NCBI RefSeq assembly: GCF_023612095.1
Contig: NZ_CP086235.1
Coordinates: 4,158,501 to 4,222,500 of the forward strand
Direction of reading: 5' to 3'
Length of the DNA stretch: 64,000 nt
DNA from: Cytobacillus firmus
GTDB taxonomy: Bacteria; Bacillota; Bacilli; Bacillales; Cytobacillaceae
How positions within the stretch are numbered: the first letter of the stretch is position 1; each line of letters begins with the position of its first letter. The notes below the pieces were generated by a model. The model worked only from the letters and a program-made list of their open reading frames with translations, searched no databases and was not told the DNA's origin. Positions 15,770 to 62,145 of the stretch are shown here, piece by piece. Made by a program: the position numbers and the translations under genes.

Positions 15770-15935
15770 GATCCTTTGCATACCCCTCAGCATGTCTATT
15801 TGCAGAAACGAATCCTGTATTTGCATTTTTCCCAGTCCATTTGCAGGATTCTCCTGTCTATGTGCTCTTTCACACTTCTATTTGCAGTAAAACTTTTCTA
15901 TTTGCATCGTTCACAACTTCTTGTGTTACTGCAAA
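15770..15935. repeat. Degenerate tandem array, 20-21 nt period, core TCTATTTGCA
   Basis: TTTGCA cores start at 15775, 15799, 15820, 15840, 15861 (as TGTGCT), 15881 and 15901. Spacing is 24, 21, 20, 21, 20 and 20 nt, and a weaker unit lies at about 15921. Each core is usually part of TCTATTTGCA(G/T), and the 10-11-nt spacers between cores are unrelated. It lies in the 290-nt spacer between dagK and rlmCD, where I see no gene. Two other arrays with the same period occur in the window. Confidence 0.85.
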
Positions 15936-15970
15936 ATAAAAGCCCGCTCTGTAATAGAGCGGACCTCCTA

Positions 15971-16905
15971 TTATTCATGGGAGCTTTCCCAATCTGTCGG
16001 GCGGTCTTCCTCACGAATCTGATCGATAGGAACAAATACTTCCAAATGCCTGTACAGATTTACGAATTCGGCAGGAAGAAGCCCGCCAAATTCACCGTCA
16101 AGATTGAGCTGTACCTTCTCTTTGGATTGCACTTTAATGCGGTTTGCCTGCGTGTAGATGACATTCGGATCCTTTACATGCTCCCCCGAACTGCCATTGT
16201 CGCGATCCGGATAAAATCGGCGAGATTGGTTTTCTTTAAGATCAGCAGGGAGAATAGTCCGTCATTAATACAGGAATCCGGCGCAAGTTTTTCAAAACCG
16301 CCGACTGAATTTGTCAGACCGACAAGGAAAAGCATGGCTTCACCCTCAAAGATTTTCCCGTCAAACTCAATGCTGACTTCAGTTGAACGGAAGGAAGGCA
16401 GCATTTCAATTCCCTTAAGGTAATAGGCAAGCTGGCCAATCATGGTTTTAAGCTTGCTTGGCACCTCGTAAGTCAGCTCTGTCAGCCTTCCTCCGCCAGC
16501 GATATTAATAAAATATTTATCATTAATGCGGCCAATATCAACAGGAATGGTATCCCCTTTTACAATAATATCCGCTGCCGCTTCCACATCTCTTGGAATA
16601 TGGAGTGCACGGGCAAAATCATTAGTTGTGCCCATTGGGATAATGCCGAGGCGCGGACGGTAATCCTGTTCAGCGAGTCCATTTACAACCTCGTTAATCG
16701 TGCCGTCACCGCCTGCTGCAACGACCAGGTCGAATCTGCGTTCAACAGCTGTCCGGGCAGCTTTAATGGCATCCCCTTCACCTGTGGTAGCATGGCATGA
16801 CGTTTCATAGCCAGCTGTCTCCAATTTCTGCAAAACCTCTGCTAAATGTCTTTTAAAAATTTCCCGGCCTGAAGTCGGGTTATAAATAATTCTTGCTCTT
16901 TTCAT
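15971..16905 (-). CDS. dagK: Diacylglycerol kinase DagK, frame broken by a 1-nt deletion
   Basis: This soluble DgkB-type kinase phosphorylates diacylglycerol, recycling the lipid released by lipoteichoic acid synthesis. The N-terminal motif VAAGGDGTINEVVNGLA (near residues 61-77) is diagnostic. The open frame stops at 16174 after 243 residues. Inserting one G in the G run (plus-strand CCCCC, 16183-16187) restores AVRGEHVKDPNVIYTQANR and continues to TAA at 15971, giving about 311 residues, the family length. DgkB is essential in B. subtilis, so a true knockout is unlikely and a sequencing error is the best explanation. Confidence 0.9.
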
Positions 16906-17064
16906 AGCCCATCATCCTATTATTGAAATATCTAAACTTAATACTTTTCATTCCATCTTTTTACATCATAGCGAATAGTCCGCGGCTTAGCAATTTTCAC
17001 AGCTAACCGTTTCTATTCTATTCACTTCCTGGTGTTTTCACAAGTGGACAGATGCACAAATGAA

Positions 17065-17157
17065 TTATACCCTCATTAAGCAAAAAAGTATCGTAATTAA
17101 GTTATATTTCTTGGCCAGGTGCTTCAAATCAGCATTATCCAGGATGAGGTTAAGCAT
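17065..17157 (-). CDS. Possible 30-aa ORF coupled to the TetR gene (doubtful)
   Basis: The TAA of the TetR-family gene overlaps an ATG (TAATG, 17155-17159) that opens a 30-codon frame, MLNLILDNADLKHL and on, ending at 17065. The stop-start overlap would allow translational coupling. The nearby AGGAG is only 2 nt from the ATG, and the product matches nothing I know. It may be a chance frame or the remnant of a lost downstream gene. Confidence 0.2.
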   Translation of the reverse strand: MLNLILDNADLKHLAKKYNLITILFCLMRV

Positions 17158-17774
17158 TACTCCTGTTTGAGGTCCTGCAAAACAAGGCTCTTAACGTAGT
17201 CAATAATGGTTCTATATGGATATTCTTCATTAATTACTCTATGAAGCATTGCCCCGTCCATAAAAGTCCAAAACAATCCTGCTACATGGTTTGGATCTGC
17301 ATCGGAACGGAATTCCCCGGTGTTCTGTCCTTCCTCCATAATATCTGTTATCAGCTTTAAAAAGAACTTCTTTCCACGCTCATTCAGGATTCGATTCAGG
17401 TTCTCATCTCTTGAGGAATGCAGCGTAAATTCCAGCTGCACAGTTATTCTATCTTTCCGTTCCTGGCTGAATGGGCTCATATCCCTGTACAAGTCAAACA
17501 GGTATTCAAGTTTCTCTTCTGCGGAGGAGAACATCGATATTTTCTCTGCAAGTCTTGCATTAGCTGATTCTGTCTGCTCATTCAACAGCTCCAGATAGAT
17601 TTCTTCCTTGCTTTTAAAATAATTATAGATAGCTCCCTTGCTGATTCCTGAATAAGCGACAATATCATCTATGGTCGCTGCCTGAAATCCTTTTTTGGCA
17701 AAGCAGGCCAAGGCGCCCGACAGGATCTCTTTCTTTTTTTTCCGTTTATATTCCTCTGATACGATTGGCGGCAA
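17157..17774 (-). CDS. TetR/AcrR-family transcriptional regulator
   Basis: A 205-residue dimeric repressor. The N-terminal HTH (residues 13-60) has the typical GFQAATIDDIVAYSGISKGAIYNYFKSKEEI. The C-terminal helical ligand domain includes GLFWTFMDGAMLHRVI near 168. The closest B. subtilis type is YfiR-like, but the ligand and targets are unknown. The start is TTG 17774, chosen because GGAGGGA lies 7 nt upstream and the product then begins MPPIVSEEYKRKKK. The small gene at 17824-18081 lies 50 nt upstream on the same strand and may be cotranscribed. Confidence 0.9.
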   Translation of the reverse strand: MPPIVSEEYKRKKKKEILSGALACFAKKGFQAATIDDIVAYSGISKGAIYNYFKSKEEIYLELLNEQTESANARLAEKISMFSSAEEKLEYLFDLYRDMSPFSQERKDRITVQLEFTLHSSRDENLNRILNERGKKFFLKLITDIMEEGQNTGEFRSDADPNHVAGLFWTFMDGAMLHRVINEEYPYRTIIDYVKSLVLQDLKQE

Positions 17775-17823
17775 TTCTGTCCCTCCAAGGCATTTGATTT
17801 ATTCTCTTTTAGTTATTAATTTA

Positions 17824-18081
17824 TCAGCAGCACTTCCGGCTGATTTCACTACTTTTCAGAATTTCTTCTGAATACAGGCTGGCATGTTCACTCGTGATTT
17901 CCGTATTTTCCTCAGCCAATCCCGCTTTTATCAAGTCTTCTTTCATTTTAGCGAGAAATAAATCTCTGATAGCTGCTGAACGGCACGGCTGCATTTGCGC
18001 TGCCAAATCCCAAATCCATTGCTCAAGATGTACACTCTTGCTCTTTTTTTGCATTTCCTGCGGAACCTGCCTTCTTCCCAT
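17824..18081 (-). CDS. Small hypothetical protein (85 aa)
   Basis: I do not recognise this protein. It starts MGRRQVPQEMQKKSKSV, is predicted helical and soluble, has a WIWDLAAQMQPCRSAAIRDLF segment in two parts near 23-43, and ends in a Cys pair (SRKCC). ATG 18081 was chosen because GGGGAG lies 8 nt upstream; GTG 18090 is an in-frame alternative without usable spacing. It lies 50 nt upstream of the TetR gene on the same strand, so the two may form an operon. Confidence 0.65.
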   Translation of the reverse strand: MGRRQVPQEMQKKSKSVHLEQWIWDLAAQMQPCRSAAIRDLFLAKMKEDLIKAGLAEENTEITSEHASLYSEEILKSSEISRKCC

Positions 18082-18198
18082 ATCTCCCACTCCCCAGGTA
18101 TTGTATTAAAATAAACTGATTGGTCTTTTTATTGTAAGTAACTTTATATGAATTTTCAAATTTTTTCATTTAAAAAAACTCCTAACTTCCGTTAAGAG

Positions 18199-18557
18199 TT
18201 ACTCCTGATCTATTTGATTTTTCTCCCGGTACATGGTTACTAATCCCCCAATGAGCATAAAGCCGGCAAAGGCAAGAGGAAACCAGCGCTCAAACAAAGA
18301 GCCTTTAGTTGGCAGCCCACTCTGTTCCTTAGAAGCTTCTTCGGGAATTTCGCCTGTAATCTGAGCCATGACAAGAGTTGTAAAGTCCTCTTCCCCGGCA
18401 TTGCCGGCAAAGAGTCCTCCTCCTCGTCCATCGCTTCAAGGTACACTTCCAGACATTGATCACATATATATAGATGATTTTCATAGAGTTCACGCTCAGG
18501 TTCAGAAAGTTCATTTTTTGCATATTTCCGCCATTCCTCCAATGAAAAATGCTCCAT
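18199..18557 (-). CDS. Zinc-finger anti-sigma-like membrane protein, frame broken by a 1-nt deletion
   Basis: The start ATG 18557 follows GGAAGGAGATGA. The N-terminal domain has the zinc-binding anti-sigma pattern H-x3-C-x2-C (ENHLYICDQCLEVYLEAM, near residues 26-43). The open frame goes off after AMPG. Adding one G at the CCCC run 18393-18396 restores GEEDFTTLVMAQITGEIP and a single transmembrane helix (WFPLAFAGFMLIGGLVTMY), ending at TAA 18199; total about 119 residues. The layout of cytosolic zinc finger plus one membrane helix is that of anti-sigma factors for ECF sigma factors, yet no sigma factor gene is adjacent. Function is inferred from domain layout. Confidence 0.75.
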
Positions 18558-18920
18558 GAAAATCATCTCCTTCCAAAGTTCCTTACAGGTTGTGCTTTGA
18601 AACACAAATAATATCCTGCAGGGTATTATTTTTATCAAACATATCCTTATAACTATTCGAATTACATGTTATCTTTTTGAGTGCCGAAACAATCATAATT
18701 TAGAGAATGGAATAATTCAATACCTTACTTATAATAATCTCTCACTAAATAAGTTACAGAATTTTCTATTCTGGATAATGATTAATTCTCCCTCTTCACT
18801 AAACCATTATATGGTAAACTGTAAGCGATGACTACATGCAGAGGAGGCTAGTAAAAATTTTTCAAATAATGGACAACTCTAATTAACAACTGAATATATT
18901 GATGAAAAAGGATGAATACG
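18558..18920. other. AT-rich divergent spacer between the zinc-finger gene and plsY
   Basis: There is no gene in this stretch. It should hold both promoters, but I see no convincing -35/-10 pair. A small palindrome, CAGAAT-TTTCT-ATTCTG, lies at 18757-18773. A GAGGAGG at 18841-18847 looks like a ribosome site but has no start codon at useful distance; only MDNSN could be read from ATG 18874. Confidence 0.5.
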
Positions 18921-19547
18921 ATGACTCTTCTTATTTACCTGGCAGCATACTTAATAGGATCAATTCCTACTGCCTTATTATTTGGCAGATTTGCCTTTGG
19001 AATTGACATTCGTGATCATGGCAGCAATAATCCTGGTGCGACTAATACATTAAGGGTTCTTGGCAAAAAAGCGGCTATCGTGGTTCTGCTGGTCGATGTG
19101 GGCAAGGGTGCCGCCGCTGCGGCAATTCCTGTCATTCTGAATGCTGAAGCTGATCCGCTAATAGTCGGGATGGTCGCAGTTGCCGGCCACTGCTTTCCGA
19201 TCTTTGCAGGATTCCGCGGAGGAAAAGCCATCGCAACCACAGCTGGCGTATTGATTGCTGCAAATATCTGGATGTTTTTAATCGCCTATATTTCTTTTGT
19301 GGCTGTCATTTTCCTGACCAAGTATGTTTTTTTCGGCTCTTTATCGGTGGGTGCATCCTTGCTTGTCTATTCCTTATTTACTGAAGGCACTGAACATGAA
19401 CTTATCTTTTCTATTTTCTTATTATTTCTGATTTTCCTGCATCGCTCAAACATTAAGAACTTTATTGATAATAATGAGCCTAAAATCAATGATAAGCGCT
19501 TAAAAGATGACCGCATCCCTCCAAGAGATGATAAAAAGCGAGCCTGA
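18921..19547 (+). CDS. plsY: Glycerol-3-phosphate acyltransferase PlsY
   Basis: This membrane enzyme transfers acyl groups from acyl-phosphate to sn-glycerol-3-phosphate, the first step of phospholipid synthesis in Firmicutes. It has about five transmembrane helices and the three family motifs: HGSNNPGATNTLRVLG (near 34-49), GHCFPIFAGFRGGKAIATT (near 90-108) and the late LLFLIFLHRSNIKNF. The C-terminus is a charged tail. ATG 18921 has AAGGA 8 nt upstream; the ATG at 18912 is too close to that site. Single gene with its own terminator. Confidence 0.95.
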   Translation: MTLLIYLAAYLIGSIPTALLFGRFAFGIDIRDHGSNNPGATNTLRVLGKKAAIVVLLVDVGKGAAAAAIPVILNAEADPLIVGMVAVAGHCFPIFAGFRGGKAIATTAGVLIAANIWMFLIAYISFVAVIFLTKYVFFGSLSVGASLLVYSLFTEGTEHELIFSIFLLFLIFLHRSNIKNFIDNNEPKINDKRLKDDRIPPRDDKKRA

Positions 19548-19550
19548 TTG

Positions 19551-19578
19551 AAACCCGTATCTGCATTCGGGTTTTTTA
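19551..19578 (+). terminator. Intrinsic terminator of plsY
   Basis: AAACCCG and CGGGTTT (7 bp) with a 10-nt loop, then TTTATT. It lies 4 nt after the plsY stop. Confidence 0.8.
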
Positions 19579-19647
19579 TTATTTTTCACATATAAGCAGC
19601 TCTTTAAGCAAAACCTTTGAATAAAGTGCGTTCAAAGGAGCTTACAT

Positions 19648-20307
19648 ATGTTCTTGATCTTAAAAATAGCGAGTCTTTACTTAATCACTATCATGATTAT
19701 GAGACTGATGGGGAAATCTACGATTATCCAGATGACACCTTATGACCTTGTCGCCATTATTATCGTTGGCACAGTTGCTTCTGAGCCTCTCATTAGCACA
19801 GAATACTTGCCGACATTAATAGCATTGGCCATTCTTGTGGGCCTCCACATTCTTTTCTCATATTTGACTTTAAACCAGATTGGCAACCGTTTTTTTCTTG
19901 GTGAGCCGACGATGCTGATTAAAAATGGGGAAATCCTTGAAGACAATCTGGAGAAGTCCCATCTTTCCATGTCTCAGCTGCTGTCCATCTTAAGAAGCAA
20001 AGGCTACCCCAAGATTGCGGATGTTGATTACGCTATTCTCGAGCCAATCGGTGAAGTGAGCATCATCCCGAAAGTGGCCAATACGCCTGTAACAGTTGAG
20101 CATTTAAAGATCCCTATTCAGGATGAGGGGCTCCCGATTGCAGTGATTGTGGATGGCAGGATTCAATCGCGTAATCTCGAGCTGCTCGGACAGACTAAGG
20201 ATTGGCTATTAGACCAGCTTCGAAAAAACCATTTGAATGAGAAAGAGATTATGTACGCTTATGTGAATGAAAAGTCAAAGAAATTGAATATAAACAGACG
20301 CAGATAA
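19648..20307 (+). CDS. DUF421-family membrane protein (YetF/YcaP type)
   Basis: A 219-residue protein with three N-terminal membrane helices (about 4-20, 33-50 and 56-76) followed by two small cytoplasmic DUF421 modules. Family signatures are RLMGKSTIIQMTPYDLVAIIIVG, EPTMLIKNGEILEDNL and SMSQLLSILRSKGYPKIADVDYAILEP. In Bacillus such proteins are often sporulation or germination associated, but the biochemical role is unknown. AAAGGAG lies 8 nt before ATG 19648. Confidence 0.9.
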   Translation: MFLILKIASLYLITIMIMRLMGKSTIIQMTPYDLVAIIIVGTVASEPLISTEYLPTLIALAILVGLHILFSYLTLNQIGNRFFLGEPTMLIKNGEILEDNLEKSHLSMSQLLSILRSKGYPKIADVDYAILEPIGEVSIIPKVANTPVTVEHLKIPIQDEGLPIAVIVDGRIQSRNLELLGQTKDWLLDQLRKNHLNEKEIMYAYVNEKSKKLNINRRR

Positions 20308-20415
20308 TTTTCTAAAATAGGTTTAGGGTTTGAAGCTGAGGGTATATAAAATTGGTTACTTACTAGACAAATAAAAGTGATTTAACTATACATATCAATA
20401 TCAGGGGGTAATGGT

Positions 20416-21441
20416 ATGACAGAAAATAGCCTAGTGCTTGAAACGAAAATTGATGGTTTTGATTTTAATTGGGACCTTGAAAAAGGTCTGTTTAATTTTG
20501 AAGGCGATGATGCGGTCTTATTTTGGATAAAATCCGCCATGAAAAGCTTCTTCGATACTATTGAAGAGATCTCTGGAAAGGAAACTTCCAGCATTGTACT
20601 TGAGACCACCGGCTTCAGGCAGGGAATGGTAGTAGGAACATTCTTCAAGGATTTAGGACTTCCCATAGAAGAAGTGGCCAATATCATCCCCAGAATATAT
20701 GCTTCTGCCGGCTGGGGAAAATATATCATTACTGATTTAGATCCTGCTGCGAAAACCGCCAGGGTCAGAGCACTTGACAGCTGGGAATATAAGATTAACA
20801 AAGAACAAGGGAAAAACGAGTCTGGAACATTCCTGCCGGGACATTTTGCAGGAATCTTTTCCGCTGTGTTTGGCACAAGCCTTTGGTATAAAAAGGCAGC
20901 AGACCAGTTGGCCGGACAGGACTATACAGAGCTGGATTACTTCCCTTCAAGCGTTACTGTTGAGGAAAATATACACGCTTTAGCGAGGCGCGAAGAATCA
21001 AAAAAAATCAGCGAGCTTGAAAAGTTAGTGGAGGACCGGACGATTGAATTAAAACAGCTTGTTAAAGAAATCTCTTCACCGGTTATTCCTGTCCTTGATG
21101 GAATTGTTGTTGTTCCTCTTTTGGGAAGATATGATGAATTCCGCTCTGAAGAACTCGTCGATAAAACTCTTCATAGCCTTCCGAAGCACCAGGCAGATTG
21201 CCTAATCCTGGACTTGACCGGGTTAAATCAGTCCATCAGTGCCTATACGGTGGAATTCTTAAGCAAACTGGCTGCTGCAGCTAATCTGATCGGCACCGAA
21301 ACGATCCTGGTTGGCATTTCTCCGGAACTTGGCACTAAAATTACGGAAACGAATTTTAACCTCTCTAAATTTAACTGCTTCACAAACCTGCAGCACGGCA
21401 TTTATTACGCTCTTTCCAAAAAAGGCAGGAAAATCTTTTAA
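20416..21441 (+). CDS. STAS-domain protein with a novel N-terminal sensor-like region
   Basis: The protein has 341 residues. The C-terminal part (about 220-335) is a STAS domain of RsbR type, starting with the linker EISSPVIPVLDGIVVVPLLGRYD and continuing with DCLILDLTGLNQ. The middle has a short coiled coil (KKISELEKLVEDRTIELKQLV). The N-terminal 190 residues resemble a V4R-like ligand module more than the globin-like RsbR domain, an assignment I hold weakly. RsbR paralogues build stressosomes that sense stress. The gene is alone, not in an rsb operon. GGGGGT precedes ATG 20416. Confidence 0.8.
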   Translation: MTENSLVLETKIDGFDFNWDLEKGLFNFEGDDAVLFWIKSAMKSFFDTIEEISGKETSSIVLETTGFRQGMVVGTFFKDLGLPIEEVANIIPRIYASAGWGKYIITDLDPAAKTARVRALDSWEYKINKEQGKNESGTFLPGHFAGIFSAVFGTSLWYKKAADQLAGQDYTELDYFPSSVTVEENIHALARREESKKISELEKLVEDRTIELKQLVKEISSPVIPVLDGIVVVPLLGRYDEFRSEELVDKTLHSLPKHQADCLILDLTGLNQSISAYTVEFLSKLAAAANLIGTETILVGISPELGTKITETNFNLSKFNCFTNLQHGIYYALSKKGRKIF

Positions 21442-21447
21442 TCATAC

Positions 21448-21486
21448 AAAAAGCTGACTTCGCATTGGACGTAAGTCAGCTTTTTG
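21448..21486 (+). terminator. Intrinsic terminator
   Basis: AAAAAGCTGACTT and AAGTCAGCTTTTT form a perfect 13-bp stem with a 12-nt loop, directly after the STAS gene. Confidence 0.9.
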
Positions 21487-21579
21487 GGTTGTTTTTATGG
21501 CTGCATTCGTAAATTCAGTGAGGATTTGATTTTTTATGTTCGCTCAGCGTTTTTTATGTGCCTTCAGGACCGGTGGCTC

Positions 21580-22344
21580 CTATTTCTCTGCCTGCACTTT
21601 CTTAGGCGCCCCCCTATATTTCGCTTCGCGCAGCTCCAGCGCGTAGGCCTCAAGATTCGGCATTCCCATATCTTTGGCAATACTGATTTCTTTCTCAATA
21701 TCATATGGAACCCTGACAATCTCGATGGAAAAAGGCGCAGCCTCTTTTGATAAGTATTCCCCATGCAAAATTGCATAGGTAGCATGAGGGATATCAAGGG
21801 AGTTTCCGACGCTTCCCGCGTTGAATAGTGTCTTTTGCGGATGAATCGGTTCAACCAGGGCTGCGTGAATATCCCCGTACCCGATAACATCCGGAATCCT
21901 GCCTTCCTCTCCGGCAGTAATATTCTCTGTATTCTCGAACATAGCCAGTTTTTCTTCATGCGAATCCCTCATCGGCACAACCCGGTGATAGATGCTTTTG
22001 GCTGAAGCATGGTAGAGTCTGATATATTTTCCGCTCATATAAAAATCGTGATGGAACGGAAGCGTGGCTAAGTAGGACAGGGCCTCTTCACCCAGCTGTC
22101 TCTGATGCCACTGCCCCTCTTCAAAATCCAGCGGCTTCTGCATAAAGTCATCCCAGTTCCCAAGGAGGACCACTTCACAGGTCTCTTTAATCCATTCAAC
22201 AGCTTTTAGAGAATTGGGTCCTTTTCCTATTAAGTCACCAAGGCAAAAAATATTCTCTATTCCGCGTTCACGGATATTGTCCAGAACAGCCTCCAGAGCG
22301 GTGATATTTCCATGAATATCAGATATTACGGCTACTTTTCCCAT
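21580..22344 (-). CDS. Calcineurin-like metallophosphoesterase (YfcE/Ap4A-hydrolase type)
   Basis: A 254-residue cytosolic dinuclear metal phosphoesterase. Metal motifs in order: ISDIHGN (residues 6-12), CLGDLIGKGP (near 34), LLGNWDD (near 60), and later YGDIHAA and NAGSVGNS in place of the usual GH(T)H-type motif. The substrate is not evident; homologues act on cyclic or dinucleotide phosphates. The true start is ATG 22344, preceded by AAGGAGGAGA; the 24 in-frame residues upstream are spurious. Divergent from ppaC. Confidence 0.88.
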   Translation of the reverse strand: MGKVAVISDIHGNITALEAVLDNIRERGIENIFCLGDLIGKGPNSLKAVEWIKETCEVVLLGNWDDFMQKPLDFEEGQWHQRQLGEEALSYLATLPFHHDFYMSGKYIRLYHASAKSIYHRVVPMRDSHEEKLAMFENTENITAGEEGRIPDVIGYGDIHAALVEPIHPQKTLFNAGSVGNSLDIPHATYAILHGEYLSKEAAPFSIEIVRVPYDIEKEISIAKDMGMPNLEAYALELREAKYRGAPKKVQAEK

Positions 22345-22509
22345 GTTTGTCTCCTCCTTACTTTTTTTATATTTCTCCAAAACACTCAAGCTTCCTCCAA
22401 CAATTGAAAAAAACAAAATTTGATTTTTCCCCGTACCGCCATTACATTAGAAATATGGTAAAATAACAGCATGCAAAAACCAACATTACATATAGAAGGA
22501 GTAGGAATT

Positions 22510-23442: not shown

Positions 23443-23452
23443 AGTGAAACTT

Positions 23453-23583: not shown

Positions 23584-23602
23584 TAGACTGCGATAAGACA
23601 GA

Positions 23603-47058: not shown

Positions 47059-47365
47059 GAAAAGCGGAAGCGCCTTGCCCACGAAGGAACGCAGACTAAG
47101 AACGCCACGTCCTGTGGCAACGTCTGCATGACCCCCATCCTGGGGGCCTCAAGCACAAGACGTTCCTCCCGGAAAGGCGTCCTTTGCCTTTTTGGGAGGA
47201 GTGTAGGAAATGTGGAGGCGACTGCCCAGGGACGACAGGCATAAGACGGTTCCTGTAAGAAGGCGTTTTTCCTTCTGAAAGGAAACGGCTTATGACCCCG
47301 AGTCCCTAGGAGCCGCAACTAGACAAGCTTGTGACCTCGAGGGGGTAGGCGCTGGAGCTAGACAG
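47059..47365 (+). repeat. Complex GC-rich intergenic repeat (GCGGAAGCGCC family), left of purD
   Basis: About 300 bp with no gene. It begins AAAGCGGAAGCGCC and ends GGCGCTGGAGCTAGACAG. An inner block (GAACGCAGACTAAGA, GCCACGTCCTGTGGCAACG, CATGACCCCCATCCTGGG) reappears reversed at 48945-49010. Its middle holds further short inverted repeats (CTTATG/CATAAG, AAGGCGTTTTTCCTTC). The ends match a repeat family I know from Bacillus intergenic regions. Confidence 0.8.
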
Positions 47366-48829: not shown

Positions 48830-49155
48830 TCAGCTTCCGTTTTTCGTATTGTTTAGCTACAGCGCCTAGGAGCTCGAGGTCATAAGCCAATCTGTCAAAA
48901 AGGTAAAGAGCCACCTTTCCAACAGCTCGTCTTATGCTTGAGGCTCCCAGGATGGGAGTCATGTAGACGTTGCCACAGGACGTGGCGCTCTTAGTCTGCG
49001 TTCCTCCTATCGAGGCGCTTCCGCTTTTCTTTTGTCCAGCTACAGCGCCTCAGGGGCTCGAGGTCATAAGCCAATCTGTCAAAAAGGTAAAGAGCCACCT
49101 TTCCGACAGCTCGTCTTATGCTTGTCGCCCCTGATCGAGGCGCTTCCGCTTTTCG
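48830..49155 (-). repeat. Two tandem copies of the GCGGAAGCGCC-family repeat between purH and purD
   Basis: Copy one (about 48850-49031) and copy two (about 49033-49155) share GCTACAGCGCCT, GCTCGAGGTCATAAGCC, a 9-bp stem around AGAG (AAAAAGGTAAAGAGCCACCTTTC) and GAGGCGCTTCCGCTTTTC. Copy one also carries an extra block (GTCATGTAGACGTTGCCACAGGACGTGGC) found reversed left of purD. No gene is present. It separates two co-transcribed genes. Confidence 0.85.
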
Positions 49156-52347: not shown

Positions 52348-52374
52348 TCCTTTTCACCTCATGGTTGGAAAAAT

Positions 52375-52475
52375 AAAGGCCGATTTTGTATTTTATCGGC
52401 CAACATTGTGCTTTTACCGGTCAAAATTGATGATTCACCGGCCGAAAAGAACAAAATACCGGCTGATTTTTATAT
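52375..52475. repeat. Degenerate tandem array, 21-nt period, core ACCGGCC, in the pur operon
   Basis: Cores ATCGGCC, ACCGGTC, ACCGGCC and ACCGGCT occur with (T/C)CGG at 52396, 52417, 52438 and 52459, exactly 21 nt apart, and a weaker AAAGGCC unit at about 52375. Inter-core sequence is AT-rich and unrelated. The array fills the only sizeable gap between purF and purM and will be present in the pur mRNA. Confidence 0.85.
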
Positions 52476-53873: not shown

Positions 53874-56074
53874 GGAATAGCTCCTTTCCAGGCCTGCTTT
53901 AGAACCTCAACCTGTTCGGCAAGCAGTAGGCCCTCTTCATTGGAGAGATATAGTACAGGTGCTTCTGTTACTTCACCAATTAGTGTCGCATCTACTAAAT
54001 TTTCAAAAGCTTCCTGATCTTCTTTTTTTACAGATAGCAAGAAACGGGATTGTGATTCACTGAATAAAGCTGAAGTCGCATTTCCTGTTACCTTGATATC
54101 CGCTCCCAGACCTTTTGAACCGATCAGGCTTTCCGCAGCAGCTACAGCCAGCCCGCCTTCTGCCACATCATGGGCAGATGCTACAAGTCCCGAACGAATG
54201 GCTTTTAAAATTTGCTCCTGTGCCTTTTCCTCTTTTTCGAGATCAAGTGCAGGCGCTTTTCCGAAGATCTTTCCGTATGTCATCTTCTGCAGCTCACTGC
54301 CGCCGAATTCATCCTTTGTTTCGCCTACCAGATAAATTAAGTCCCCAGCTGCTTTAAAAGATTGTGTTGTCACATGGTCAATGTCTTCTACAAGCCCGAC
54401 CATTCCGATGACAGGTGTCGGGTAGATCGCTGTTCCATTTGTTTCGTTATATAAAGAGACGTTTCCGCCGATAACTGGTGTATCCAATGTGCGGCATGCT
54501 TCACTGATTCCGTCTGCCGCTTTTTCAATCTGCCAGAAGATTTCAGGCTTCTCCGGATTTCCGAAGTTCAGATTATCCGTGATCGCCAATGGCTGACCGC
54601 CGGAGCAAATGATATTTCTTGCCGCTTCTGCAACAGCTATTTTTCCGCCTGTTTCAGGGTCAAGATACATATACCGTGAATTACAGTCTGTTGTCATAGC
54701 CAATCCTTTGCGGGTGCCGCGGATGCGGATGACAGCTGCATCTGATCCAGGTGCTACTACTGTATTGGTGCGAACCATATAGTCGTATTGGTCATAAACC
54801 CATTCCTTGCTGGCGATTGTCGGCTGCTGGAGAAGCTTTACCAATGTTTCTTTATAATCTTCAACCGCAGGAATTTCATTTTCCATCGCCTGGAATTCAC
54901 GGAAATACTCAGGCTCGCTTGATGGCTTATGATAAACTGGCGCATCCTCTGCAAGTGCATCTACTGGAAGCTCTGCCACTACTTCCCCCTGATGAGTAAG
55001 GCGGAGCATTTTATCATCCGTTACCTTGCCGACAGAAACGGCTTCCAGGCCATATTTTGAAAATAAATCCACAATCTCCTGTTCGCGTCCTTTTTTCACG
55101 ACAATCAGCATTCTCTCCTGAGACTCGGAAAGCATCATTTCATATGCTGTCATACCTGTTTCCCTTTGAGGAACAAGGTCAAGATTCATTTCAATCCCTG
55201 ATCCCGCTTTGCTGGCCATTTCAGCAGAAGAGCTTGTCAAACCTGCAGCTCCCATATCCTGAATGCCGACTAGTGCGTCAGACTGTACCAGTTCAAGACA
55301 TGCCTCCAGCAGAAGCTTTTCCATGAATGGATCGCCAACCTGTACCGCCGGGCGTTTTGATTCTGATTGGTCTGTCAGTTCTTCAGATGCAAAAGTAGCA
55401 CCATGGATACCATCACGGCCCGTTTTCGCGCCAACATACATAACGGTGTTGCCTACTCCATGGGCCTGGCCTTTTTTAATGTCTTTATGGTCGATTAAGC
55501 CGACACACATCGCGTTAACAAGCGGATTTCCTTCATAGGAAGAATCAAACTGCACTTCTCCCCCAACTGTAGGAATGCCAATGCAGTTTCCGTAGCCCGC
55601 AATGCCTGCGACTACTTCTTTAAAAAGGTACCGTACACGAGGAGAATCCAATTCTCCAAAGCGTAAAGAGTTGAGGAGTGCGACCGGTCTTGCGCCCATT
55701 GAAAATACATCGCGGATAATCCCGCCGACACCTGTTGCTGCCCCCTGGTAAGGCTCGATTGCAGAAGGGTGATTGTGGCTTTCGATTTTAAACACAACTG
55801 CTTGCCCATCGCCGATATCAACAATTCCAGCTCCTTCCCCTGGTCCCTGAAGTACTTTCTCTCCTGTTGTCGGGAACTTGCTTAAAACGGGCTTTGAGTT
55901 TTTATAGCTGCAATGCTCTGACCACATAACCGAAAACAAACCGATTTCTGTGTAATTTGGCAAACGCCCGATAATCTTTTCAATCATCGCAAATTCGTCA
56001 TCAGACAAACCCATTTCTTTGTATACCTTCTGTGCCTTTAACTGTTCCGGACTTGGCTCAAGCATTAACGACAT
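53858..56074 (-). CDS. purL: Phosphoribosylformylglycinamidine synthase subunit PurL
   Basis: The large ATPase subunit of FGAM synthase in the PurSQL complex. 738 residues with [17 protein letters not shown] (near 50), [27 protein letters not shown] (near 93), [18 protein letters not shown] and the second PurM-like half with [17 protein letters not shown] (near 637). ATG 56074 has GGAGGGA upstream and overlaps the end of purQ by 17 nt, so translation is coupled. Confidence 0.98.
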
Positions 56075-56744
56075 ATGCTTCCCTCCATTGTTTTACGATT
56101 GATTGAAAAAGTTTCAGGCCATCTGCTCCCCCTAAAAGCTCATCAACAGCTCTCTCAGGGTGCGGCATCATACCGAGCACATTTCCTTTTTCATTGACAA
56201 TACCTGCAATGTTTTCCAGGCTGCCATTTGGATTTGTTTCATTATAAGTAAAGACAATCTGATTATTTGCCTTTAAAGCTGCAAGAGTTGCTTCATCACA
56301 ATAATAGTTTCCTTCGCCATGAGCGATTGGAATATTAATTACTTCATCCTTCTCGTATGCAGATGAAAACATAGTTTCGTTGTTTTCAACCTTCAGCTCC
56401 ACCGTACGGCAGATGAATTTCAGGCTGTCGTTTCTTCTCATTGCTCCCGGCAGAAGACCTGCTTCAAGCAGAATTTGAAAACCGTTGCAGACACCGAGAA
56501 CCGGCTTGCCTTCCTCAGCCGCTTTCACTACTTCTTTCATGACATTGCTGAAGCGGGCAACAGCACCCGAACGAAGATAATCTCCGTAAGAAAAACCTCC
56601 TGGAAGAAGAATTCCGTCATATTCGTCTAAGCTTTCCGCGTCATGCCAGACATATTCGGCTTCCGCTCCAAGCTCATCCTTTACTGCATGGTACATATCG
56701 ATGTCACAATTGGACCCTGGAAATACGATCACAGCGAACTTCAC
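56058..56744 (-). CDS. purQ: Phosphoribosylformylglycinamidine synthase subunit PurQ
   Basis: The class I glutaminase subunit, which supplies ammonia to PurL. 228 residues: [17 protein letters not shown] at the start, [17 protein letters not shown], the catalytic Cys in [20 protein letters not shown] (near 86), and His-Glu in [12 protein letters not shown] (near 200). Start is GTG 56744 overlapping the purS stop (GTGA). Confidence 0.98.
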
Positions 56745-56994
56745 TGAGCAACAGCCTCCTCGATTTCAAAGCGGTAATCTTCAATCACAACGTTAGCCAA
56801 TAAGCGCTCACACATTTCCTTCACAGCTTCTTCTACAGGACGGTCGCTTTTTTCCACTGTCAGCTCCATATATTTTCCTATGCGCACATCAGAAACTTCG
56901 CTGTAGTTCATGGAATGCAGAGAGTTTTTACAACTGTTCCTTGAGGATCTAGAACACTTTCTCTTAATGTGACGAAAACTTTTACTTTGTACAT
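56741..56994 (-). CDS. purS: Phosphoribosylformylglycinamidine synthase subunit PurS, frame broken by a 1-nt deletion
   Basis: PurS bridges PurL and PurQ and channels ammonia. ATG 56994 (GGGAGG 9 nt upstream, overlapping the purC stop) reads [19 protein letters not shown], then runs into a stop at CIP. One extra A at the T5 run (plus strand 56925-56929) restores [27 protein letters not shown] in parts and reaches TGA 56741, giving 84 residues, the family length. With PurQ and PurL intact, the loss is more likely a sequencing error than a real mutation, which would make the cell a purine auxotroph. Confidence 0.87.
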
Positions 56995-57707
56995 ACTGTT
57001 TGGCCTCCCAGTCTCGCTAAAATATTTTCATATGCATCCGTTAAATTTCCAAGGTCCCTGCGGAAAACGTCTTTATCCAATTTTTCATTTGTTTCAATAT
57101 CCCAAAGCCTGCAGGTATCTGGAGAAATCTCATCAGCCAGCAAAATTTGGCCTGATTCATCTTTACCAAACTCCAGCTTGAAATCTACTAGTTTAATGCC
57201 CAGGTCTTTGAAAAAATCTTTTAATACGGCATTAACCTGTAGTGCTTTTTCCTGTAAAAGGGCAACTTCCTGCTTATCAGCCAATTGAAGAACTTCAATA
57301 TGATCTTCTGTCAGCAGCGGATCACCAAGCTCATCATCTTTGTAGTAGAACTCAACAATTGGTCTTGATAATTCTTTCCCTTCTTCAACTCCCAATCTCT
57401 TAGAAAAGCTCCCCGCCGCAACATTGCGGACCACTGTTTCGAGCGGAATGATATCCACTTTTTTCACAAGCTGTTCTGTCTCCGAAAGCTTTTTAATAAA
57501 ATGTGAACCAATCCCCAGCTCCTGAAGCTTTGAAAATAGCAAACTGGTAATCTCATTATTCAGCCGGCCCTTGCCGCAGATGCTCGCTTTTTTCTCCCCA
57601 TTAAAGGCTGTTGCAGAATCTTTATATTCAATCCAGACAATATTTTCATCGTTTGTCCTATATACCTTTTTGGCTTTGCCTTCGTATAACAATGCTCCTT
57701 TTTCCAT
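56982..57707 (-). CDS. purC: Phosphoribosylaminoimidazole-succinocarboxamide synthase
   Basis: SAICAR synthetase, coupling CAIR to aspartate with ATP. 241 residues with LLYEGKAKKVYRT (near 6), AFNGEKKASICGKGRLNNEITS (near 34), IIPLETVVRNVAAGSFSKR (near 75), VDFKLEFGKDESGQILLADEISPDTCRLWD (near 177) in order. ATG 57707 has GGGAGG upstream. It follows purB after a 104-nt spacer with a strong hairpin. Confidence 0.98.
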   Translation of the reverse strand: MEKGALLYEGKAKKVYRTNDENIVWIEYKDSATAFNGEKKASICGKGRLNNEITSLLFSKLQELGIGSHFIKKLSETEQLVKKVDIIPLETVVRNVAAGSFSKRLGVEEGKELSRPIVEFYYKDDELGDPLLTEDHIEVLQLADKQEVALLQEKALQVNAVLKDFFKDLGIKLVDFKLEFGKDESGQILLADEISPDTCRLWDIETNEKLDKDVFRRDLGNLTDAYENILARLGGQTVCTK

Positions 57708-57772
57708 TGCGGAGAGCCTCCCTTATTTAGATAGCGGACTTTATTAATAAGAAGATTGGGAATTTTCCCGAT

Positions 57773-57808
57773 AATAAAGAGGTAAAGACTGCTCTTTACC
57801 TCTTTATT
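57773..57808. repeat. Perfect 15-bp hairpin between purB and purC
   Basis: AATAAAGAGGTAAAG (57773-57787) and CTTTACCTCTTTATT (57794-57808) pair fully around ACTGCT, just after the purB stop. In the direction of pur transcription no T tract follows, so it is probably an mRNA processing or stability element rather than a terminator. The T tract lies on the plus-strand side. Confidence 0.85.
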
Positions 57809-57811
57809 TTT

Positions 57812-59104
57812 TTATAAACCCAGACGGTCAAAAATGGTATCCACATGCTTGATGTGGTAGTTATAGTCAAAGCAGTCATCTATTTCTGCTTCGGATAGCT
57901 TTGATGAAATAGTTTCGTCCTGCTCAATAAGGCTGCGGAATTGTACCTGCTTTTCCCATGCTTCCATGGCTCGCGGCTGAACAGTGTCATATGCCTCTTC
58001 GCGAGTCATGCCCTTGTCAATCAAGGCTAGAAGAACACGCTGAGAGTAAATTAGCCCTAACGTACGGTCCATATTGCGTTTCATGTTTTCAGGGAAAACG
58101 GTTAAGTTCTTAACAATATTCCCAAAGCGGTTCAGCATATAGTTCAGCGCAATCGTTGCATCAGGCAGGATGATTCTTTCAGCTGATGAGTGGGAAATAT
58201 CGCGCTCATGCCATAATGCCACATTTTCATACGCAGTCATCATATAACCGCGGATCACTCTTGCCATACCTGTCATATTTTCTGAACCAATTGGATTGCG
58301 TTTATGCGGCATGGCTGATGATCCCTTTTGGCCTTTCGCGAAAAACTCTTCCACTTCACGCGTTTCGCTTTTTTGCAGACCGCGGATCTCCGTCGCAAAT
58401 TTTTCAATTGAAGTGGCTACAAGTGCAAGCGCACCCATATAATGTGCATGACGGTCACGCTGAAGTGTTTGCGTTGAAATTGGCGCTGGCTGGATGCCCA
58501 GCTTTTCACACACATATTTTTCAACGAACGGATCGATGTTTGCATATGTTCCAACGGCACCAGAGATTTTACCGAACTCTACACCAGCCGCTGCTTCTTT
58601 AAAGCGGTCAAGATTACGCTTCATTTCTTCATACCATAATGCAAGCTTTAAACCGAAAGTAGTTGGCTCAGCATGCACTCCGTGCGTACGGCCCATCATC
58701 ACTGTATGTTTGTGTTCCTGTGCTTTGTTTTTCAGGATTTCCACAAAGCGTTCAATATCTTTTAGAAGAATGTCATTCGCCTGCTTGATTAAGTAAGAAA
58801 GCGCCGTGTCAACGACATCTGTTGACGTAAGCCCGTAGTGAACCCATTTGCGCTCCTCGCCAAGTGTTTCAGATACCGCCCGAGTAAAAGCAACAACATC
58901 ATGTCGTGTTTCCTCTTCGATTTCTTTAATGCGGTCAATATTAAAAGAAGCATTCTCACGGATTTTCTGAACATCTTCTTTCGGAATATCTCCTAATTCA
59001 GCCCAGGCTTCACAGGCAAGAATTTCTACCTCAAGCCAAGCCTGAAAGCGGTTCTCTTCTGTCCAGATAGCTCCCATTTCCGGTCTCGTATAACGTTCAA
59101 TCAT
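57812..59104 (-). CDS. purB: Adenylosuccinate lyase
   Basis: Acts twice in purine synthesis: on SAICAR and on adenylosuccinate. 430 residues of the fumarase/aspartase superfamily: [20 protein letters not shown] at the start, [14 protein letters not shown] (catalytic His near 68), [18 protein letters not shown] (near 137), and the signature [15 protein letters not shown] (catalytic Ser near 262). ATG 59104 has GGAGGA upstream, 3 nt after purK. Confidence 0.98.
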
Positions 59105-59107
59105 GTT

Positions 59108-60261
59108 TTATCCTCCGATCTTTTCCTTCACAGGGGTCCAAATGCCGCTTTTTTCTGCTTCTTCAATTGCCTCTTCGGCTGAGTTCCGCAAAAGCGTGAC
59201 ATGGCCCATCTTGCGTTTATATTTGGCATCCTTTTTTCCGTACAAGTGTATCTTCCAGTCATCCAATTCAGGAATTTTCTCAATTAAAGGCTCCTGGTGC
59301 TCTCCTAGTATGTTTACCATAACAGCTGGTTTTAATAGCTCCGTACTGCCAAGCGGCCAATTGCAAACCGCACGGATGTGCTGTTCAAACTGGGAGGTTT
59401 CGCAAGCTTCAATGGAATAATGGCCTGAGTTATGCGGACGAGGCGCAAGCTCGTTAATGTAAATCTGACCGTCTTTTGTCAGAAACATTTCGACTGCCAA
59501 TGTACCGACAAGGCTTAAAGCTTCTGCCAGCTGATTTGCTGCCTTTACTGCCCGTTCCTCAGCATCAGCTGTGATCATGGCCGGCACAATGGTCTGGTGC
59601 AGAATGTTTTCTTTATGAACATTTTCCCCGACTGGGAATACCGCTTTTTCCCCGAAATATTCCGACAGATAATAACCGATATTTCCTTTTCGAAAGCGAT
59701 CCATTTTTCAAGGACACACTCGCCATTCTCTAGGAGCTGTGCAGCTTTCTTAATATCCTGCCCGCTCTTTATCACAACTTGCCCTTTTCCGTCATATCCG
59801 CCTCTGGAAGTCTTTAATACGGCTGGATAGCCAAGCTTTTCTATATTATCATAAATGCCTTTTTCAGTCGTAATGACCGCATATGGCGCTACCTCGCAGC
59901 CGGCTTTTTGGATGGCTGCTTTTTCCTTTGTCCGGTCCTGGGTAATCTCCAGCACCGTGCTCCCCTGGGGGACGTATGCATTTGCACATAGCCACTCAAG
60001 AGCTTCCGCACTGATATTTTCAAACTCATAAGTGACAACATCACTCACTTTTGCCAGCTCTTTTATAGAATCTAAATGTCCGTATTCGCCAATGATTTTA
60101 ATATCCGCAACCTGGCCGCAGGGAGAATCTTCTGCCGGATCCAAAACGGCAATCCTGAAGCCATTTGCCTTGGCTGCCAGGGCCATCATTCTGCCAAGCT
60201 GCCCCCCGCCAATAATTCCAATTGTTTGTCCGGGTAAAATGGTTGTTTTAGACAAGTTCAT
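59108..60261 (-). CDS. purK: N5-carboxyaminoimidazole ribonucleotide synthase PurK, frame broken by a 1-nt deletion
   Basis: An ATP-grasp enzyme that carboxylates AIR to N5-CAIR. The N-terminal part from ATG 60261 has [18 protein letters not shown] and the ATP-grasp segment [17 protein letters not shown]. After [12 protein letters not shown] the frame shifts. Adding one G at the CCCC run 59650-59653 restores [21 protein letters not shown] and the C-terminal part with [16 protein letters not shown], ending at 59108; about 384 residues in all. It overlaps the end of purE by 14 nt. As for purS, error is likelier than true loss. Confidence 0.9.
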
Positions 60262-60736
60262 CACTGCTTTCCAGTACTTCCTGTTTTGTTTTATCTCTTT
60301 TTGACTGAAGACGTTCTGCAATGGCTGTATCAAAAGCGCCAAGGATTTCTGCTGCCAGCAATCCGGCGTTAGTGGCTCCTGCTTTTCCAATCGCAACCGT
60401 TGCAACCGGAACGCCGCCGGGCATCTGAACAATGGACAGCAATGAATCCAGTCCGTTTAGAGCCTTTGATTGCACTGGTACTCCAATTACAGGAAGTGTC
60501 GTTTTCGCAGCTACCATTCCAGGCAGGTGCGCCGCTCCGCCTGCACCCGCAATAATAACCTTAATGCCTCTGTCCCTTGCCTGCTCAGCATATTCAAACA
60601 TTAGGTCTGGAGTCCGATGGGCTGAAACAACCTTCTTTTCAAAAGAAATTTCAAGCTCTTCCAGAATTCCGCAAGCGTGCTTCATTGTCTCCCAATCTGA
60701 TTTGCTTCCCATAATGACTGCGGCTTGTACGCTCAT
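60248..60736 (-). CDS. purE: N5-carboxyaminoimidazole ribonucleotide mutase
   Basis: Rearranges N5-CAIR to CAIR. 162 residues with the family motifs [15 protein letters not shown] (near 6), [16 protein letters not shown] (near 39), [20 protein letters not shown] (near 65) and [32 protein letters not shown] in order. ATG 60736 has GGAGGA upstream; in-frame residues before it lie in the leader terminator region and are spurious. First gene of the pur operon. Confidence 0.98.
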
Positions 60737-60762
60737 TCCATCTCCTCCAAATCGTCCAATAT

Positions 60763-60816
60763 AAAAAACCCGCACAGACCCTTCTCTTATATGAGAGAAA
60801 GTAATCTGTCCGGGCT
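60763..60816 (-). terminator. Riboswitch-controlled leader terminator of the pur operon
   Basis: On the minus strand CCCG(GA)CAGA and TCTGTGCGGG with an inner AGAGAAG hairpin form a long stem ending in TTTTTT, 27 nt before the purE ATG. It should form when the aptamer binds guanine. Confidence 0.85.
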
Positions 60817-60889
60817 AAAAAGAACCGTTAAGGAAGAAACCTGCAAACGGCAGGGATCATTCCTTCTGCATGCCGGGCATATCATCTTT

Positions 60890-60960
60890 CCCTCATAGTC
60901 CGGCAATTTACGGTTGCCAGGTAGAAACTTATGGGCCCTATTCCCATTATTATACGAGGG
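60890..60960 (-). promoter_or_regulatory. Purine (guanine-class) riboswitch aptamer
   Basis: On the minus strand P1 arms CCTCGTA and TATGAGG enclose the conserved TATAAT-like J1/2, the P2 hairpin, AAGTTTCTACC and the P3 hairpin GGCAACCGTAAATTGCC, then GGACTATG. The specificity base in GGAC(U)AUG is C, indicating guanine/hypoxanthine rather than adenine. It matches the purE leader of B. subtilis by layout. Confidence 0.93.
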
Positions 60961-60988
60961 GGTTATTCACGTTTTATTAACTACCACC

Positions 60989-61018
60989 ATATTAACAACA
61001 TACCTGATATTCTGTCAA
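60989..61018 (-). promoter_or_regulatory. Putative sigma-A promoter of the pur operon
   Basis: TTGACA (minus strand, 61013-61018) and TAATAT (60989-60994) are spaced by 18 nt, about 25 nt before the aptamer. Confidence 0.7.
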
Positions 61019-61027
61019 TTAAAAAAT

Positions 61028-61061
61028 CGAACAATACTAAAAGTCAGACAATTATTGTTCG
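61028..61061. promoter_or_regulatory. Twin inverted PurBoxes (PurR operator)
   Basis: CGAACAAT (61028-61035) and ATTGTTCG (61054-61061) are exact inverted copies 18 nt apart, just upstream of the -35. This matches the paired PurBox layout (core CGAA) bound by Bacillus PurR. The outer box is near the stop of the NETI gene at 61066. Confidence 0.85.
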
Positions 61062-61065
61062 TGTT

Positions 61066-61272
61066 TTAACCATCTGCTCGTTTTGCCTCAAAAACAATTT
61101 GCCGGCCGGCCGGTTCATAATCGACTTTACTGCCTGTCTTAACTTCTTTAAAAATAGGCTTCTCAGTCCTTCTGACAGGTATATATCCAGCCTTTTTGAT
61201 TCTTTCCAGGCATTGGTCAATCGTTTCATTTTCCTGGACTTCGAACGAAATTTTATTCTTGCCTTTGCTCAT
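61066..61272 (-). CDS. NETI-motif-containing protein
   Basis: A 68-residue cytosolic protein with the NETI motif near residue 15 ([25 protein letters not shown]) and the end [14 protein letters not shown]. Function is unknown. It is found next to the DUF2179 gene and purE in many Bacillus genomes. Its ATG overlaps the stop of the DUF2179 gene by 4 nt, so the two are coupled. Confidence 0.92.
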
Positions 61273-61811
61273 TGAGACAACTTTCCTCTCTTAACTGATT
61301 TTACCCAGAAGCCGCCATGAATCGTTTTTGGCTCATAAGCGATGATAAAGGCCTTAGGATCCAGCTCTTTAATCGTCTGATAAAGCTTCAGCTCATATTT
61401 TCTCGGTGTCAGGATCTGCAGGGCCATCCGATCGCCTTCAAGACCATTGGCAGCCCAGTTGGTTACGCCATACCCTTTTTCTCTTAAAGCTTTTGGCAGG
61501 TCTCTATCATATTCCTTTGTAATTACATTTACGGTAATATAGCCAAGAGCCAGCTTCTCTTCAATTTTCATGCCGACAATAACGCCGATTCCATAACCGA
61601 CTGCATAAGCAATTAAATTTTGTATTTCATTCAGGTTATCCAGAACCAGCCCTAGTCCAATCACATAGATAACAACTTCGATGGTGCTTAAAAAAGCTGC
61701 CAGGTAACGCTGTCCCTTAAGCGTCAGAATCATCCTGATGGTAAAAAACGATACATATACGATATTAATAATCAAAATAATAGCGACCATAATAAAACTG
61801 TTTTCCAGCAA
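61269..61811 (-). CDS. yebE: DUF2179 membrane protein (YebE type)
   Basis: A 180-residue protein with three N-terminal membrane helices (about 5-27, 37-56 and 64-82) followed by a cytosolic DUF2179 domain (about 95-175) including [20 protein letters not shown] and [20 protein letters not shown]. Such domains may bind a small ligand; the role is unknown. ATG 61811 follows GGAGG. It is first in a two-gene unit with the NETI gene, as in B. subtilis. Confidence 0.9.
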
Positions 61812-61959
61812 TGCAAGTCCTCCTTCATAGGGGAACTAAGAGGCAAATGAGTGTCCTCTCCCCATTAAGTCACTATTGTACAAAAGAAATTGGCTTTTGA
61901 TAACCTTTTTTCAAAAATTGATTCTTTGTGTATAGGTTATCCTTTTTGGAGTGGGATGA

Positions 61960-62145
61960 AACTGTTTATCTTTTAATGGGTTTTGTATGGAGGAATGAGG
62001 CTCGGACATTTTATCTGGCAGGTTTGGGAGTTTATCTAGCATGTTTGGGGTTTTATCTAACAAGTTCGAAAGTTTATCTAACAAGTTTTCATTTTTATCT
62101 AGCATGTTTTGGAACTTATCTTACATTTGGCAAAATTCATCTACA
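61960..62145. repeat. Degenerate tandem array, exact 21-nt period, core TTTATCTA(A/G)CA
   Basis: TTTATC cores start at 62010, 62031, 62052, 62073, 62094, then CTTATC 62115 and TTCATC 62136: seven units exactly 21 nt apart. A further TTTATC stands at 61965. Each unit is roughly TTTATCTAGCATGTTTGGGAG. On the minus strand one frame reads as LLDKxPN heptads. It fills the spacer between the DUF2179 gene and the 5S rRNA; the rest of that spacer holds only the rrn terminator. Confidence 0.9.

Follow-up and report, generated by a model that had tools for sequence, protein, structure and literature searches.

The window, a 64-kb stretch of Cytobacillus firmus DNA, contains three non-coding arrays of short direct repeats, designated A, B, and C. 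Array A follows the terminator-like hairpin at the end of a diacylglycerol kinase gene, the last unit of array B forms part of a hairpin, and array C lies 3′ of an rRNA operon. The features are as follows.

15795..15915, minus strand: array A, six units reading TGCAAATAGA plus about 11 nt on the minus strand, partly decayed
15933..15963, minus strand: where the diacylglycerol kinase gene ends, a terminator-like hairpin (intrinsic type) with T-run that immediately precedes array A in the array's sense
52369..52401, minus strand: hairpin GGCCGAT..ATCGGCC that uses the last unit of array B as its 5′ arm and leads into a T-rich run
52395..52470, minus strand: array B, four TTGGCCGRTAA-like cores with gaps of 21, 21, and 21 nt
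62010..62135, minus strand: array C, six units of TGYYAGATAAA plus 10 nt, with five gaps of 21 nt, 3′ of the rRNA operon
62188..62241, minus strand: three extra units with a different, ATATGCG-like core and gaps of about 20 to 21 nt, between the 5S terminator and array C
62295..62319, minus strand: terminator-like hairpin that follows the 5S rRNA gene and, in the array's sense, precedes array C
62324-62440: 5S rRNA gene

On the plus strand, the units of array A (n = 6; gaps of 21, 20, 21, 20, and 20 nt) are TCTATTTGCA-like, those of array B (n = 4) are ACCGGCC-like, and those of array C (n = 6) are TTTATCTAGCA-like. Coordinates, cores, and periods were rechecked, and all agreed with the original prediction of three non-coding arrays with a 20- to 21-nt period. 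Orthologues of array A and counterparts of array C were found in relatives, and array B has one unit less than relatives such as L009. The extra ATATGCG-like units are more distinct at another rRNA operon (L291).

TRF reported a period of 21 for arrays B and C and did not report array A. In a scan of lags 10 to 44, the 21-nt peak was strongest for array C, with 73% identity across 100 nt, and second strongest for array B (48%), and array A had the highest value at lags 20 (48%) and 41 (50%); the values for A and B barely exceed the best at other lags, and the scan by itself is weak for both. A chain detector (9-mers, at least four units) was applied to 464 kb of the Cytobacillus genome that included the window. 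With at most two mismatches, 12 chains were found at lags 20 to 22 (five of them accounted for by two arrays in one stretch and one probably due to chance) versus 0 to 2 at seven other lag sets; with at most one mismatch, there were 8 chains versus 0 to 1. Chains were in excess only near lag 21. Arrays were found at gap 20/21, and none were found at eleven control gaps. Among 678 next-core distances of up to 70 nt, 482 were 20 or 21 nt, 7 were 22 nt, 4 were 19 nt, and a few (23) were 23 to 38 nt, while 62 formed a second group at 40 to 42 nt. A coding repeat, for which 21 nt would equal seven codons, was rejected because gaps of 20 nt break the frame.

The cores had been described as array specific, but they are not unique to single arrays. 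Many arrays of the same genome carry core A (80 neighboring pairs genome-wide; control, 0), core C is also present at several rRNA operons and elsewhere, and core B is kept between purF and purM in related species. Many cores share the frame YGC-NN(N)-ATA, and of 193 genomes in the family, 133 have its TCGC-NN-ATA version, in some cases as a single match only. Array specificity did hold for the 2-base slot of the frame, which is near constant within an array: its bases agree in 93.5% of comparisons between neighboring units versus 40% between arrays. The three arrays of the window are a sample of a large class, and cores that seem unique within one window turn out to be samples of a common frame. 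Within one array, only the core is kept and the spacers are nearly unrelated; the same cores recur across many separate arrays carrying different spacers.

Core conservation was examined in orthologous arrays of a few loci, uncorrected for the tree. For two pairs, picked from six loci because their unit numbers matched, 0 of 108 core positions had changed versus 28 of 140 of the rest. Across the window's loci, changes were seen in 30 of 203 core columns versus 51 of 151 others. The small subset B1 runs in the opposite direction (2 of 22 core columns and 0 of 10 spacer columns changed), and core changes are present at locus L157 relative to G042. Whole units were both copied, as seen in identical neighboring units and repeated two-unit blocks, and lost. 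At some orthologous loci the arrays have decayed or disappeared altogether, indicating that single arrays are dispensable.

This turnover agrees with the earlier suggestion of active copying by slippage. It would also fit neutral minisatellites, in which a preferred 20- to 21-nt step of slippage or unequal exchange would spread a seed with no function; bacterial minisatellites (VNTRs) likewise gain and lose tandem units whole. We regard such an origin as unlikely. Core and spacer of a functionless minisatellite should evolve alike, whereas here spacers change more than cores between species, many separate arrays that differ in their spacers carry identical cores, gap lengths are not free to drift, and orientation and gap type are biased (see below). 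Slippage alters unit number, yet by itself it leaves protected cores between random-looking spacers unexplained. The constant repeat, constant spacer length, and array-specific repeat also recall CRISPR. In contrast with CRISPR, core and spacer are only about 10 nt each, there are dozens of loci per genome, and spacers are inherited between species with substitutions. CRISPR arrays take new spacers from invaders, and these bear no relation to the spacers already present; here, new units in relatives repeat existing spacers, and orthologous spacers drift by substitution.

The position of arrays relative to genes was determined for a set of 79 array loci, orthologues included, of which 57 could be classed and 22 could not; genes were called by a simple codon-score script, so gene ends are approximate. 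Arrays lie mostly 3′ of genes. The upstream gene runs in the array's sense at 43 of 57 classed loci, and the 14 exceptions led us to reject an absolute orientation rule. Divergent gaps are avoided (1 of 57 classed loci versus 36 of 160 gaps overall) and convergent gaps are enriched (15 of 57 versus 14 of 160). A replication-strand element was also rejected, since the array is oriented with the upstream gene rather than with the fork at the head-on genes of L148, L154, L159, and L161; the second L108 array fits the fork and not the called gene, and one L152 array and both L158 arrays fit neither. Of the 79 array loci, 29 have a terminator-like hairpin in the array's sense at most 160 nt upstream and 7 have an antisense one; many arrays are therefore probably little transcribed.

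These hairpins weaken, though they do not abolish, the original alternative that each unit is an RNA-binding site. An RNA-level element would act in read-through or intra-operon transcripts, where its units would be sites for an RNA-binding protein, a nuclease, or a small RNA. The orientation of arrays with the upstream gene, which prevails over the fork at the four head-on loci of the window's own genome, is consistent with this reading, as are the arrays that sit inside the pur operon. Folding of seven arrays gave a mixed result: three were more stable than shuffled sequences (z of about −2.3 to −2.6), but the other four had z between −0.96 and 1.74. Moreover, there is no obvious RNA reason for the strict 20- to 21-nt spacing or for the helical A/T modulation described below, and complements of the cores were not enriched nearby at 0 to 1 mismatches. 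Around 122 arrays, exact complements numbered 0 and 0 and those with one mismatch 2 and 2 (shuffled means, 1.5 and 1.6); at two mismatches a weak signal remains, with 30 upstream (shuffled mean, 18; maximum, 31) and 37 downstream (shuffled mean, 20; maximum, 29). Together, these data make an RNA-level element quite unlikely. Array B resembles repeated hairpin 5′ arms, but the scarcity of close complements led us to reject repeated terminator arms as well.

The A/T content within arrays oscillates at 10 to 10.5 bp. The second harmonic corresponding to this oscillation was 0.27 to 0.29 and exceeded all 300 spacer shuffles in which the core was held fixed. Of the original readings, the one that survives the distance distribution, the conservation of cores, and this helical swing is a multi-site binding platform whose cores share one DNA face. 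We consider it an even call that the arrays are DNA-level platforms, phased on one helix face, on which a putative factor binds or wraps DNA where transcription units end. Each platform would hold a site in three to about twenty copies, one every two helical turns and all on the same side of the helix, within the gap that follows a transcription unit. A putative sequence-reading factor would recognize each core (often YGC-NN(N)-ATA) along with an A/T block at a distance of about one turn, and it would bind or wrap the DNA along the array. Whole units would be gained and lost by slippage or unequal exchange; in active arrays, selection would maintain the phase and the cores as spacer letters drifted, and unused arrays would decay. 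With a slot that is constant within each array, either more than one reader or a single reader with several modes would be required. The most likely role for such a factor would be in local topology or insulation at transcription-unit ends.

Plasmid iterons are direct repeats of about 20 to 22 bp that are uniform within an array, differ between arrays, and are phased to one DNA face. They were overlooked in the original statement that no described element combines a constant period with an array-specific core. The arrays share with iterons the spacing, the uniformity, and the one-face phasing. Iterons, however, mark a replication origin beside an initiator gene, whereas the arrays occupy many chromosomal gaps, mostly behind genes, with no origin or initiator gene at the loci examined; a Pfam scan of eight neighboring proteins found no replication initiators among them. 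BLAST, which has limited sensitivity for such short sites, returned no match for an A-type array among 72,556 plasmid or 50,697 phage records and neither a TCGCGGATA-type array nor array C matched any of the 72,556 plasmid records; a plasmid or phage origin was rejected for the arrays queried. The shared build would suit chromosomal iteron decoys titrating the initiators of incoming plasmids, but this is very improbable given the lack of plasmid matches to the arrays queried, and it leaves the location behind genes unexplained.

By analogy, the arrays appear to be built like plasmid iterons and placed like BIME or gyrase sites. As in enterobacterial REP/BIME elements (BIME-2 being gyrase sites; PMC6379681), arrays are interspersed, intergenic, biased to the 3′ sides of genes, enriched in convergent gaps, and possibly linked to supercoiling. 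Unlike the palindromic REP units, which alternate in orientation, array units are non-palindromic direct repeats in the same orientation, with a two-turn period and a variable core slot. A search of a literature library with a set of selected terms found no description of a matching named repeat, and the papers with a matching letter string were judged unrelated from their titles and the beginnings of their abstracts. More tentatively than for the platform itself, we suggest that the arrays may constitute a new class of chromosomal DNA platform. Such platforms, phased at two helical turns and located 3′ of transcription units, would be widespread in the window's family and patchily distributed in other Bacilli; each would have its own 2- to 3-base slot, kept uniform by selection and read by one or more putative factors, and at gene ends they would act as sinks or boundaries for DNA topology. 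A repeat class of this kind, with conserved cores and with many arrays on each chromosome of many genera, points to a yet-unnamed DNA-reading system at gene ends. The arrays offer natural phased substrates for finding its reader and, in Gram-positive bacteria, make it possible to test whether helical phasing is linked to supercoiling and to the ends of transcription units.

In its most concrete version, the platform explanation would make the arrays topoisomerase sites, a counterpart in bacilli of E. coli BIME-2: phased bendable DNA behind transcription units that would serve as strong gyrase sites absorbing positive supercoils. In the E. coli gyrase map, the motif is reported to have phased 10-bp G/C variation and sites to be enriched behind highly transcribed operons (PMC6379681). 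The arrays show such phased variation in their A/T swing, and their avoidance of divergent gaps and enrichment in convergent gaps are likewise consistent with gyrase sites. Gyrase tolerates varied sequence, however, whereas the 9-nt cores here are almost invariant and the slot is array constant, and we find this version improbable. The rRNA operons point both ways: 29 of 39 5S ends, among them all 15 in G068 and G080, are without an array of at least four units, while 10 of 39 carry one, compared with 0 for six control lag pairs.

Three non-coding arrays in the window (A, B and C), each built of units that pair a short core with a spacer at a period of 20-21 nt, were reexamined, and their units, cores and gaps agreed with the original prediction. 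The genes flanking all three have the sense of the - strand, on which the cores are read.

Non-coding arrays in the window
15795-15915, - strand: array A, core TGCAAATAGA, between the rRNA/tRNA uracil methyltransferase gene and the diacylglycerol kinase gene
52395-52470, - strand: array B, TTGGCCGATAAA-like core, in the gap preceding purM, with purF as the other flank by position
62010-62135, - strand: array C, core TGCTAGATAAA, between an rRNA operon and a DUF5698/DUF2179 gene

Chains (runs of 4 or more 9-mers spaced by the lags of a given triple, each differing from the one that follows by no more than 1 mismatch) were counted in 88 loci plus the window (1.70 Mb). Lags 20-22 yielded 31 chains; among them, array C is counted two times, once in the window and once in L001, alongside its L002 orthologue and eight orthologues of array B. 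Ten other lag triples yielded 0 to 5, the value of 5 belonging to lags 18-20, which share lag 20 with the tested set. Within the genome containing the window, the window plus 20 stretches sampled at even intervals (464 kb in all) contained 8 chains at lags 20-22 versus 0 or 1 at seven other triples. Samples of 400 kb gave 7 chains versus 0 to 2 at other triples for genome G068 and 3 versus 0 or 1 at six other triples for G080. The latter genome, from another genus, has a single TCGC-type pair, and its chains showed further cores.

Core A formed 80 neighboring pairs in the window's own genome (gap of 19-22 allowed; control, 0), while core C was found again at several rRNA operons and elsewhere. 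Pairs of TGCAAATA were present in 27 of 61 genomes (own and relatives) and pairs of TGYYAGATA in 19. Across the family Cytobacillaceae, TCGC-NN-ATA pairs with a gap of 20/21 occurred in 133 of 193 genomes and 16 of 25 genera, with up to 156 per genome; a control pattern gave 0 to 4. About 90 of the 193 genomes, counted by hand from the table, had at least 5 pairs, and those with one match may have it by chance. In a sample of 250 genomes from the class Bacilli, 28 had matches, mostly single ones, and the genomes rich in pairs outside the family were G276 (127), G324 (17), G250 (7) and G444 (5). G276 belongs to another family of the class, whereas most families sampled show none or one; convergence, transfer or ancient origin may account for this.

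A search with YGC and ATA fixed and a slot of 2 or 3 free bases between them recovered, at a gap of 20/21, 53 arrays (51 distinct) with 3 or more units, and no array of that length at eleven control gaps. Within 2-base slots, 331 of 354 bases agreed between neighboring units, and agreement between array consensuses was 40%. Spacers of neighboring units agreed at 34 to 36% at positions 12 and 14-16 and at 52% at position 13 (58 comparisons). Arrays outside this frame also exist, e.g., the TATTCGAGAGTAAA, CAACTGTCGTAAA and GATAATAAA types.

Distances between successive YGC-NN-ATA motifs (maximum 70 nt, all loci collected; n = 678) were 21 nt in 323 cases and 20 nt in 159, counts inflated by loci retrieved with gap-limited patterns; 22, 19 and 18 nt accounted for 7, 4 and 3, 23-38 nt for 23 in total, and 40-42 nt for 62. 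Distances of 20-21 nt made up 94 of 127 in own-genome loci, and permuted control motifs gave far smaller peaks at 20/21 nt. The main swing in A/T content along the unit was at the helical period, with an A/T block about one turn away from the core. The second harmonic was 0.293 for 20-mers (134 units) and 0.268 for 21-mers (254 units); the first was 0.084 and 0.072. When core positions 1-8 were left in place and all other positions shuffled, the second harmonic dropped to 0.209 and 0.185, and none of 300 shuffles reached the observed values.

Six loci were compared with a relative, and core and rest counts were taken from the two orthologous pairs with equal unit numbers. Differences numbered 0 among 108 sites at core positions 1-9 and 28 among 140 sites elsewhere in the unit (p = 4e-8), with a bias toward intact cores because units were located by at most 1 core mismatch; altered cores were present between L157 and G042. 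In the window's own, partly decayed loci, variable columns numbered 30 of 203 in cores versus 51 of 151 in spacers (p = 4e-5), while subset B1 showed the opposite trend (2 of 22 versus 0 of 10) and subset B2 consisted of two sequences only, the column counts not being independent of tree shape. Whole units were gained and lost: an array B unit of L009 is missing from the window. Adjacent units were identical in some arrays, G007 showed repeated two-unit blocks, and at several orthologous loci the arrays were short, decayed or different. In long arrays (G007 C1 359736-360840, G042 C19 95-674 and G033 C18 59498-59886), spacers recurred in multi-unit blocks, resembling the higher-order repeats of satellites.

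Flanking genes allowed 57 of 79 array loci (own genome, relatives and named loci, orthologues counted) to be classed. The upstream gene had the array's sense in 43 of 57 (p = 1.5e-4) and the downstream gene in 29 of 57. Gaps were codirectional with the array in 28 cases, convergent in 15, against the array in 13 and divergent in 1; 160 background gaps of 100-1000 nt from a 400-kb sample comprised 110 codirectional, 36 divergent and 14 convergent. Terminator-like hairpins lay within 160 nt upstream of 29 of 79 array loci in sense and 7 in antisense; downstream, the counts were 10 and 21. The GC skew of the own genome switches sign between 157-165 and 185-193 kb, and at four own-genome loci with head-on genes the array followed the gene, not the fork. 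At L108, the second array agreed with the fork and not with the called gene; one L152 array and both L158 arrays matched neither. Five genomes yielded 40 5S matches; of the 39 analyzed, 10 were followed within 700 nt by an array with 4 or more units (G000, 5 of 9; G001, 2 of 8; G061, 3 of 7; G068, 0 of 10; G080, 0 of 5), operon copies not being independent; six control lag pairs gave 0 such arrays. Behind the same rRNA flank, other genera had different cores (L010, L029, L034, L078 and L087; the visible sequence of L034 and L087 does not include the 5S gene).

The arrays resemble plasmid iterons in build and BIMEs in placement. None of three arrays used as queries matched a plasmid collection, one of the three had no match in a phage collection, and the portion of the literature covered by our search held no account of any resembling repeat. 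We regard the arrays as intergenic repeats of the interspersed kind whose build is iteron-like. The strict two-turn spacing, one-turn A/T modulation, better-kept cores and location behind terminators point to recognition at the DNA rather than the RNA level. A core that hardly varies and a slot kept constant within each array would call for a putative sequence reader; that a protein binds the arrays, and what it may do there, we infer. Since an E. coli gyrase map reports phased 10-bp variation of G/C in a motif, together with enrichment downstream of highly transcribed operons (PMC6379681), a topological role at transcription-unit ends is a concrete possibility.

Other features were observed as well. 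A short array with an ATATGCG-like core and a period of 20-21 lies at 62188-62241, in the stretch that separates array C from the 5S terminator, and a six-unit version is present at a different rRNA operon (L291). The diacylglycerol kinase frame (about 15960-16905) is broken, with 243 aa in one frame and the end in another, reflecting either a broken gene or a sequencing error; three relatives checked have a single open 313-aa segment. Two inverted copies of Bacillaceae-1 RNA lie 1.9 kb apart (47080-47146, + strand; 48944-49010, - strand). In the purF-purM gap, a different element (GTCTAGCTCCAGCGCC ... GGCGCTTGCGCTTTTC) stands directly 5′ of purM in L011, L013, L014, L019 and L020, with a shorter form in L022, L024 and L025. 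In some relatives it directly follows array B or replaces it, raising the question of recurrent insertion at one site.
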